Part shown: piece by piece, positions 36,841 through 55,709 of the stretch
Position numbering within the stretch: position 1 is the stretch's first letter
How the letters are laid out: every line of letters begins with the position of its first letter
Assembly (NCBI RefSeq): GCF_902498745.1
Contig: NZ_LR701479.1
Span: 810,292 to 874,291 of the forward strand
Source: Erythrobacter sp. EC-HK427
GTDB lineage: Bacteria > Pseudomonadota > Alphaproteobacteria > Sphingomonadales > Sphingomonadaceae
Direction of reading: 5' to 3'
Length of the DNA: 64,000 bases
Translations under genes and position numbers: made by a program
The notes under the pieces: model-generated
What the model was told of the DNA's origin: nothing
The model's input: only the letters and a program-made list of their open reading frames with translations
The model's database searches: none

Positions 36841-37626
36841 ATGGCCAGCAGAGCCGTTCAGACCGGCGCGGACTGGAAAGCCGCTTTCCGCCATTCGCTT
36901 GCCCGCAGCGCGCAGCTGACGGGGGCCGTGATCCTTTACGCCTTCACCATTTTCCTCGCCATCGCGCTGATGAGCTACAGCCAGACCGATCCCTCGCTCT
37001 CCACTGCCGCCGGCGATGTGGTGGACAACTGGATGGGCAAGCCCGGCGCATTTGCCGCCGATCTGGCGCTGACCGGATTTGGCCTCGTCGCCGTGCTGTT
37101 CCTGCCGCTGACGTACGTGTTCGCGCGCAAGCTGTGGCGCGATGCCGACGAGGAGGAGGATTGGGGCGGTTCGTGGTGGCGCACCGTGGCGTTCATGCTG
37201 CTGGCAATGGCGCTGCTCTCCACCGTTCTCTCGCTCGTCACCGATACGCGCGAAGGTGCGGGCTGGGGCGGCGCGTTTCCCGCGGGGCTGGGCGGACTGG
37301 CAGGCCTGCTCGGCGAAGGGAGCATCCGCGCGGTTGCGGGTCTACTGCCCGATGCGGCGCAATTCTGGACGATCCTTGCCGGCGGGGTGCTGGCTTTGGT
37401 GGGCGGCGCTTTCCTTGCGGGGCGGATTTTCGCGCTCGACTGGTCGCGCTTCCTCACGCTTCCCGAATGGGCGGGCAAGCGGCCCAAGCTCGGCGGCCCC
37501 AGCAATCCGTTCAAGCCGGAAAAGCCCAAGAAGGACCGCCCCGCGCCCGAACCGATCAATGATCCGGAGGATGCGGAGGGCGACGCCCTGCCCCCGCGCC
37601 GCCCTCCGCATCCTCCGGATCATTGA
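36841..37626 (+). CDS. FtsK-type 4-TM N-terminal domain protein, motor domain missing
   Basis: The 261-aa product matches the membrane domain of DNA translocase FtsK: four TMs (about residues 24-44, 68-92, 117-137, 175-198) and the FtsK-like YSQTDPSLSTAAGDVVDNWMG after TM1 (split here by one residue). A Lys/Pro-rich linker begins at about 215, but the frame stops at residue 261, inside a perfect 41-bp inverted repeat. The Walker A motor and gamma domain of a normal 750-800 aa FtsK occur nowhere in this window. It is either a truncated gene, a real stand-alone membrane domain, or an assembly misjoin. RBS AAAGG lies before the ATG. Confidence 0.8.
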   Translation: MASRAVQTGADWKAAFRHSLARSAQLTGAVILYAFTIFLAIALMSYSQTDPSLSTAAGDVVDNWMGKPGAFAADLALTGFGLVAVLFLPLTYVFARKLWRDADEEEDWGGSWWRTVAFMLLAMALLSTVLSLVTDTREGAGWGGAFPAGLGGLAGLLGEGSIRAVAGLLPDAAQFWTILAGGVLALVGGAFLAGRIFALDWSRFLTLPEWAGKRPKLGGPSNPFKPEKPKKDRPAPEPINDPEDAEGDALPPRRPPHPPDH

Positions 37627-37640
37627 TCGGTTCGGGCGCG
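37542..37640. repeat. perfect 41-bp inverted repeat with 17-nt spacer
   Basis: The arms 37542-37582 and 37600-37640 are exact reverse complements (41 of 41). The left arm encodes the end of the FtsK-like frame (APEPINDPEDAEG) and the right arm encodes the same peptide on the minus strand. The FtsK-like stop codon and the start of the next ORF lie inside the right arm. Such length and perfection within coding sequence suggests a fold-back duplication, biological or technical. Confidence 0.95.
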
Positions 37641-38198
37641 CCGCCACCCCCTCCCCCGCGCCCCGCGCCCGATGCCAGCGCGCTGGTGGAAGCGATTGCG
37701 GCGAAGGCGGAAGCAGCCGAACCAACACCGCAGCGCATCGAAACCGGATCGGTCGATGATGTGCTGGCGGAAATGGCGGCCGAAGAGGGCGCAACCTTTC
37801 GCCCCGCCGCCACGCTGTTCCGCGATTTCGCCACGCGCTGCCGCCAGCGCGGCATTGCCTCGGCGCATGTCGATATGCCCGCCTTCCGCCGCCTGTTCGC
37901 TTTCGCCAGCGCGGGGTTCGACCGGCTTGACGCACCGCTGCGTTCGCGGGTGGAGGCGATGGCCGCCAATGTCGATGACGATGTGCTTGCAGCCTATCTC
38001 GCCATTTGCGTCGCCGCCGCGCAGGGCCGCAAGGCGCCTGACGAGGACGAACTCGCGCGCGCTTACGGCACCGCATCCCCCGGCCGCATCCGCCGCCTGC
38101 TCGATCATCTGGAGAAGACCGGGCTCATCGCCGTGCACGAGGATTTCGGCGGCGCGCGCACGATCACCGTGCCGGGGCTGGAGCATCTCGCGGTTTAG
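37623..38198 (+). CDS. unrecognised protein with possible C-terminal winged helix
   Basis: The open frame gives a 191-aa protein from a TTG that overlaps the FtsK-like stop (TTGA); no better start or RBS is visible, so the 5' end is uncertain and may be missing. A Pro-rich N-terminus is followed by a helical domain (about residues 45-125). A C-terminal segment (about 135-190, PSPGRIRRLLDHLEKTGLIAV-like) resembles a winged helix. It is not the FtsK gamma domain, whose NR-A-x-x-x-E pattern is absent. Codon use fits a real gene. Function unknown. Confidence 0.55.
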   Translation: MIGSGAPPPPPPRPAPDASALVEAIAAKAEAAEPTPQRIETGSVDDVLAEMAAEEGATFRPAATLFRDFATRCRQRGIASAHVDMPAFRRLFAFASAGFDRLDAPLRSRVEAMAANVDDDVLAAYLAICVAAAQGRKAPDEDELARAYGTASPGRIRRLLDHLEKTGLIAVHEDFGGARTITVPGLEHLAV

Positions 38199-49668: not shown

Positions 49669-51195
49669 CTACCGCATCAGCCCGCCGATGATATTGCGCA
49701 CAAAGGCGGTCGCGCCGGTGCGCAGCGGGTTGGCGCTGGAGCGGCGACCCGTCACGCTCGCCACCGCGATAGAGGTCAGCGAGCCTGCCGCTGCGCCCAT
49801 CGCCGCCTTGCCGGCGCGTTCCCACATACTGGGCGTTTTGCGTTCGCGCTTGGCGACTTCTTCCTCGCCCTGTTCTTCAACCTCTTTCGCGGTTTCGGCG
49901 GCATCGGCGGCCTTTTGCGCCAGCACTTCCTCGGCGCTTTCGCGGTTGACCGCTTCGTCATACTTGCCTTCGAACGGGCTGACCGACTGGATGATCGCGC
50001 GTTCCTTCGGCGTCAGCGGGCCAAGGCGGCTGCGCGGCGGCTTGATGAGCGTGCGCTGCACGATTGTCGGCGCGCCTTCATCGTCGAGCGTGCTGACCAG
50101 CGCCTCGCCGACTTTGAGTTCGGTAATCGCTTCGGCGACATCGAGATCGGGGTTGATACGGAAGGTTTCCGCCGCTGCCTTGATCGCGCGCTGGTCTTTG
50201 GGGGTGAAGGCGCGCAGCGCGTGCTGCACGCGGTTGCCCAATTGCCCGGCAATTTCCTCCGGAATATCGATGGGATTTTGCGTCACGAAATAGACGCCGA
50301 CGCCCTTGGAGCGGATGAGGCGCACAACCCGCTCGATCGTGTCGTGCAGCGCCTTGGGCGCATCGTCGAACAGCAGATGCGCCTCGTCAAAGAAGAAGAC
50401 GAGCTTGGGCTTTTCCGGATCGCCCACTTCGGGCAGCGTTTCGAACAGCTCGGCGAGCAGCCAGAGCAGGAAGGTAGCGTAGAGCTTCGGGCTGCGCATC
50501 AGCTGGTCGGCGGCGAGCACGTTGACCATGCCGCGCCCCTGATCGTCCAGCGTGATGAAGTCGTTGATCTCCAGCGCAGGCTCGCCGAAAAACTTGTCCG
50601 CGCCCTGGCTTTCGAAGCTCAGCAATTGCCGCTGGATCGCGCCTACCGACTGTTTGGACACATTGCCGTACGTGCCCGAAAGCTCGGCCGCATTGTCATG
50701 CGCCCAAGCGAGCATCGCGCGCAAATCCTCGAAATCGAGCAGCAGCAGCGCGTTTTCGTCGGCATAGCGGAAGACGATGTTGAGCACGCCTTCCTGCGTC
50801 TCGTTCAGATCGAGCAGACGGGCGAGCAGCAGCGGCCCCATTTCGGACACCGTGGTGCGGATCGGGTGGCCCTGTTCGCCGAACAGATCCCAGAACACCA
50901 CCGGATTATCCGAATAGGCATAATCGTCCATGCCCAGTTCCTTGGCGCGGGATTCCAGCTTGTCGGCGTGCTTGAACCTGGGCGAGCCCGGCATAGCGAT
51001 GCCCGACAGATCGCCTTTCACATCGGCCACGAAAACCGGGACACCGGCGGCAGAGAAACTCTCCGCCATGCCCTGCAAGGTCACCGTCTTGCCCGTTCCG
51101 GTCGCCCCCGCGACAAGGCCGTGGCGGTTGGCGCGCCCCAGATCGAGCGCCTGCCGGTTGCCGCCCAGATCGTTACCCAGAAAGATGTCGGCCAT
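49669..51195 (-). CDS. DUF853/HerA-like ATPase
   Basis: The 508-aa P-loop ATPase belongs to the HerA-FtsK helicase superfamily (DUF853). Walker A is GATGTGKT (residues 30-37), Walker B is [16 protein letters not shown] (about 265), and the arginine-finger region [18 protein letters not shown] follows. The C-terminal ~90 residues are Glu/Lys-rich coiled coil plus a hydrophobic-basic end. The closest described relatives are YjgR-like proteins of unknown role. It is not the DNA translocase lost at 36.8 kb, because it lacks TMs and the gamma domain. Divergent from pabBC. Confidence 0.9.
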
Positions 51196-55583: not shown

Positions 55584-55709
55584 CTGACACATCCGTGTCA
55601 GCTCGGTGCCAGCCCGACTCCCCCACCCAGCCACCCGATAACGTATCGGACAATTATCGGGTGGCTGGGTGGGGGAGTCGGGCTGGGGCCGCGCAAGCTG
55701 GCAGCTTGC
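55584..55709. repeat. hairpin cluster with a perfect 33-bp inverted repeat and G-quadruplex motif
   Basis: The central arms 55609-55641 and 55654-55686 are exact complements (33 of 33) around a 12-nt spacer. Smaller hairpins flank it: CTGACAC-atcc-GTGTCAG (55584-55601) and GCAAGCT..AGCTTGC (about 55693-55709). The right arm has GGG tracts at 55659, 55667, 55671, 55680 and 55685, a potential plus-strand quadruplex, and the left arm is the mirror on the minus strand. No coding function is visible. Confidence 0.9.

Follow-up and report, generated by a model that had tools for sequence, protein, structure and literature searches.

The stretch of DNA analysed here, called the window, spans 64,000 nt (positions 810292-874291 of contig C2) of Erythrobacter sp. 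EC-HK427 and carries a ftsK gene that stops after its membrane domain, within a long perfect palindrome. Is this a bacterium that has separated the FtsK membrane domain from its motor, or is the gene interrupted in the assembly only? FtsK is essential in Caulobacter. Its essentiality in Corynebacterium is addressed in PMC11898615.

Frame 36841-37626 (+) has 261 codons and its 261-aa product matches FtsK_4TM in a profile search (PF13491, E 2.1e-17), the N-terminal domain of a full-length FtsK, in agreement with the preliminary description of a four-TM N-terminus of 261 residues. This part shares 60-76% identity with the 24 genomes of the same genus that were compared. The segment 36841-37604 (+), coding for the four-TM domain and the start of the linker, is genuine ftsK sequence according to the PF13491 match and the identity to congeners. 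Judging from the frame, native ftsK sequence would end at about 37602-37608, upstream of the false stop TGA (37624-37626), which lies inside the right arm of the inverted repeat. No FtsK motor is found within the 64-kb window: the sole FtsK_SpoIIIE match there is a P-loop of 44 positions (26.7 bits) in another ATPase, so that the motor and gamma domains are missing from the window as had been stated. The other ATPase, 508 aa long and encoded at 49669-51195 (-), has this weak P-loop match without being an FtsK motor, and presumably resembles HerA/DUF853-type ATPases. Profile searches of all contigs of the genome, extending the check to a second 4TM domain and a motor elsewhere, yielded one FtsK_4TM match, that of the window, and four FtsK_SpoIIIE matches. 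A single one of these covers the motor at full length and it lies on contig C3; the partial ones are in the 508-aa ATPase, at C2:321459-321563 and in the ATPase at the end of C3. One 4TM domain and one full motor read as the halves of one gene on two contigs, which speaks against the natural stand-alone FtsK membrane domain previously envisaged.

The genome consists of three contigs, C1 (3,027 bp), C2 (3,123,037 bp) and C3 (11,580 bp), with an estimated completeness of 99.99%. Base 1 of C3 falls within the FtsK linker and opens a frame running to base 1590 (529 aa), which gives hits in the family search to FtsK_alpha (2.6e-28), FtsK_SpoIIIE (1.3e-69) and FtsK_gamma (2.5e-21), the motor being placed by profile search at C3:415-1071. 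The alpha, motor and gamma domains of a full-length FtsK are thus present on C3 and absent from the window. The linker of the window reads ...INDPEDAEGDALPPRR and C3 starts with PEIVDPAAPPPRARP, while relatives have ...AKRRPTEISDPAAPPRRAKP, ...FADRKPPEIIDPAAPARRAKP and similar sequences; the own linker '...GDALPPRR' followed by 'PEIVDPAAP' of C3 resembles the linkers of relatives, e.g. '...KRRPTEISDPAAP'. The reading frame suggests that at most about a codon is missing or overlapped at this left border, where 0-2 bases are possibly absent and were not recovered. At the other end of C3, a 295-aa frame corresponds to the N-terminal half of a HerA/DUF87-like ATPase (DUF87, E 5.1e-10). The last 15 nt of C3 (L006:11566-11580) are identical to 37637-37651 (+) of the window and in the same reading frame, so that the window continues C3 from there: the 3' part of the ATPase is at 37637-38198 (+), as supported by the frame, the comparison with congeners and the gene order. 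Since C3 begins in the FtsK linker and ends in the ATPase resumed at 37637, its place is between the left and right sides of the junction. The true order would be the ftsK 4TM part on the left side of the window, then C3 with the rest of ftsK, RimK-like and other genes, a TonB receptor and the first half of the HerA-like ATPase, and then the second half of that ATPase on the right side of the window. We consider it nearly certain that the motor-less FtsK is an assembly misjoin; ftsK would then be intact in the true chromosome, for which the frames and linkers of relatives give indirect support.

Other origins of C3 were considered. Against an excised circle, the first and last 100 nt have no common same-strand 10-mer, which makes a closed circular contig less likely without being a strict test; the stronger counter-argument is that both ends fit the window. 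A mobile element is set aside as well: among eight queries with its other genes, 5, 6, 6, 4 and 4 were matched in the related loci L056, L057, L058, L059 and L060, respectively, in conserved order, a weak RimK cross-match in L059 being the one exception, and the matches of the protease query in L056, L057 and L058 count little, this query being partly out of frame (2 stops). The first 200 nt of C3 match nothing but themselves in the genome (40 of 85 candidates scored). The last 200 nt match, besides the 15-nt overlap, themselves and one 42-nt stretch of 83% identity elsewhere (40 of 123 candidates scored). Directly behind ftsK, C3 also codes for an orphan Phage_Mu_F-like protein (L006:1642-2379; PF04233, E 1.2e-10) that has no match in the same five related loci.

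The comparison with relatives had been named beforehand as a test able to refute a natural truncation, and the refuting result was obtained. Forty genomes were searched, 24 of the same genus and 16 more distant. In all 24 congeners the 4TM match lies within an uninterrupted ftsK frame of 785-887 aa that continues past this point, so no conserved gene end follows the 4TM domain as it would for a stand-alone protein. Weak 4TM matches were obtained in 14/16 distant genomes, with frames of 792-897 aa in 12 cases. In the other two outgroups the 4TM frame is short (G032, 245 aa; G036, 202 aa), which made stand-alone domains elsewhere conceivable; locus L039 of G032 stops before the usual flank, so that its short frame sits at a contig end. 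The right half of the window ATPase was found in 20/24 congeners and in 0/16 of the others. The best match in each of the 20 falls in a frame of 487-547 aa, and a further, weak one of G006 in a frame of 224 aa. The ATPase half shares contig and strand with ftsK in 19 of the 20, 3.9-18.7 kb downstream, and in the twentieth, G001, ftsK and the ATPase half are on separate contigs. The ftsK-to-ATPase distance is 0.8 kb here as assembled and, by arithmetic only, about 12.3 kb with C3 counted. The five related loci named above include those of Aurantiacibacter sediminis, A. marinus and Aurantiacibacter sp. D1-12; in all five the C3 motor part has a counterpart of 83-91% identity directly behind the 4TM part. 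L060 carries on one strand and in order thiE, ftsK, four further C3 genes, the ATPase with both halves and ald. A linker comparison on both strands of 29 loci provided the linker for 25 of them, and a Walker A pattern was found in 23. Of the six loci without this pattern, L012, L013, L026, L056, L057 and L059, the last three match the C3 motor by tblastn. The 29 loci are not independent because linkers are identical in the pairs L012/L056, L015/L060, L017/L058 and L026/L059, which are probably the same genomes.

A ftsK gene naturally split into a stand-alone membrane domain and a separately encoded motor would agree with the location of the 4TM and motor parts on different contigs as assembled. 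It was rejected, and we give it hardly any credit, on three grounds: the motor frame is open from the first base of C3 and starts in the middle of the linker, ftsK is unsplit in 24/24 congeners searched, and at the other end of C3 the ATPase gene is broken at the corresponding point.

The inverted repeat at the junction has arms of 45 nt (37542-37586 / 37596-37640), 98% complementary and separated by 9 nt. The single mismatch between the arms, A37583/C37599, leaves 37542-37582 / 37600-37640 as an exact 41-bp inverted repeat, as first described, and its coordinates and the TGA at 37624-37626 in its right arm were confirmed by re-reading. The palindrome of 99 bp in total is thus laid out as 41 exact pairs, one mismatch, three further pairs and a 9-nt loop. 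Of the three inverted pairs that a search of the window gave (at least 24 nt, 14-nt seed, distance of at most 300 nt), this one is the longest, and 41 exact pairs are far beyond chance by a simple expectation rather than a shuffle test. A sequence search of 39 other congeners found no counterpart of the 99-bp palindrome; partial matches of 25-40 nt occur in 2/39 and in one other place of the own genome.

The anatomy of this repeat has two distinct parts. The left arm (37542-37586, +) is native ftsK linker, as seen from the arm alignment and the linker comparison, and would be the template of a copied arm. Within it, GGGCGACGC (37578-37586) pairs at 8/9 positions with GCGCCGCCC (37596-37604) across the 9-nt loop (37587-37595), building a putative snap-back hairpin at 37578-37604 (+) that includes the A37583/C37599 mismatch. 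Folding of 37542-37604 with DNA parameters gave the expected hairpin; with the shorter piece 37570-37604 a different structure was preferred. The bases from about 37605 to 37640 reproduce 37542-37577 exactly in reverse complement, and this stretch (37605-37640, -), which holds the false stop, is most simply read as an artefactual copy, with an uncertainty of a few bases on the border between native and copied sequence near 37605. The lone mismatch indicates that the stem is native, not copied, and divides it from the copied arm. An imperfect native stem-loop followed by a perfect copied arm would be expected of a snap-back chimera and is what is found here. The first four nucleotides (CGCG) of 37637-37651 are common to the copied arm, a microhomology.

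This junction bears on two further readings. Were the C3 segment inverted, the right arm would be inverted ftsK linker facing the right flank, and the junction at 37637-37640, taken alone, does have the shape of an inversion border. Inversion was rejected and has next to no probability in our view, as the sequence left of 37637-37640 refolds after 9 nt into the left flank instead of running through an inverted C3, and the gene order of relatives matches C3 in forward orientation. The other reading is a real deletion allele present in part of the culture: template switching in replication, by snap-back and a microhomology jump, would have removed 11.6 kb, and the assembler would have placed the deletion allele in the main contig while both alleles coexist. 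The mismatched stem, the copied arm and the 4-nt microhomology are the anatomy of template switching in vivo and in vitro alike. Such an allele would however be deprived of the FtsK motor and of several genes that are conserved among relatives, and its junction is found in 0/39 other congeners. C3 is also without 127-nt forks with C2, unlike C1, a point that is not decisive because GC-rich read loss could hide the forks. We hold a deletion allele to be very improbable, and the same slight chance is given to a genuine snap-back loss of the motor persisting as a minor allele tolerated through a free FtsK membrane domain.

The assembly and the sequence character of the breaks fit the misjoin. C1 overlaps both ends of C2 by exactly 127 nt; we take such exact overlaps to be graph neighbours left by k-mer assemblers with k=127, a sign of short-read assembly. 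C3 has no 127-nt partner at its ends and therefore terminates in dead ends. The first 60 nt of C3 have 80% GC and the right junction (37637-37696) 82%. A motif search found four canonical G-quadruplex motifs in the window, one of them at the right break (37647-37670, -), and a single one in C3, at its start (C3:16-45, minus strand). Of the other three in the window, two sit in a single hairpin at 55.6 kb and one at 26.4 kb; there is none in 45,028 nt from five other stretches of this genome. GC content and quadruplex motifs at both C3 borders make the loss of short reads likely there. C1 (L007:1-3027) has methylase and terminase-like frames, named by reading alone, and a single N at C2:1695662 (L067:7436-7790 = C2:1695435-1695789) is likewise flanked by its ends. 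C1 resembles the collapsed central part of a phage-like module present in two copies, and since it bridges both C2 ends and flanks the N, C2 is probably a closed circle with two copies of that module.

We privilege the following course of events for the misjoin. Both borders of C3 are in very C-rich coding linkers, prone to G-quadruplexes or hairpins, where short-read coverage probably failed, and we infer that the edges of coverage on either side were joined by a chimeric molecule. A strand with its 3' end in the ftsK linker (...GCGCCGCCC), at about 37604, would have folded back on GGGCGACGC and been extended by about 36 nt along itself; the copied strand would then have used the 4-nt CGCG to reach the far side, in the right half of the ATPase. 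The assembler would have followed this bridge, leaving C3 as a separate contig. What was observed is which genes and reading frames C3 holds, that its two ends fit and have no long second copy in the assembly, the gene order of relatives and the anatomy of the repeat; the gap in coverage, the chimeric read and the stage at which it formed are deduced. A plain coverage gap does not require that C3 ends within about 15 bases of the two junctions, as it does. With a k of 127, the 99-bp palindrome would have had to be spanned by 127-mers, and chimeric molecules must then not have been negligible. Among the three options offered in the preliminary description, the joining of two loci is the one supported, and the repeat itself looks like a fold-back product.

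Two other repeats of the window deserve mention. The intergenic segment 36510-36780, just upstream of ftsK, belongs to a family of interspersed repeats with inverted arms that may be REP- or MITE-like. With 40 of 106 candidates scored, it has at least 40 matches in this genome, including itself and both-strand matches of one place. The 10-mer CGAGGACGAA occurs six times in the window for 0.16 expected. A second near-perfect inverted repeat (55601-55694; 41 nt, 93%, 12-nt loop) has a G-quadruplex motif in both arms; it is intergenic, upstream of a frame that looks exonuclease III-like on reading alone. It is matched in 4/24 other genomes, in three on both strands and hairpin-like and in one by 27 nt only, and is therefore probably a natural element, unlike the ftsK palindrome.

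The misjoin removes a false 'motor-less FtsK' from consideration and reveals that a near-complete assembly can carry a clean-looking false deletion whose sole mark is a short perfect palindrome. Where such a palindrome beside a G-rich linker is accompanied by an orphan contig fitting the gap, it may serve as a sign of misjoins in GC-rich genomes.

Library preparation is known to yield chimeric inverted-repeat reads, for which PMC10908179 gives the PDSM model and self-pairing of single strands. There, as proposed here, short inverted repeats pair, the 3' end is extended and the read becomes its own reverse complement, and mismatches within the repeat have an influence in that setting as well. 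The cases differ in that the paper deals with soft-clipped reads of human targeted libraries, whereas survival into a bacterial assembly is proposed here, together with a jump to a second locus about 11.6 kb away, distant partners being a matter of speculation in the paper. Compared to the FtsK/SpoIIIE DNA translocases, the protein has the 4TM domain in the window and alpha, motor and gamma on C3, the only difference being the cut made by the assembly in the linker of the gene. The HerA/DUF87-like ATPase likewise has its 5' half on C3 and its 3' half in the window, in line with the undivided frames of the 20 congeners, and differs from them in being cut by the same misjoin as ftsK.
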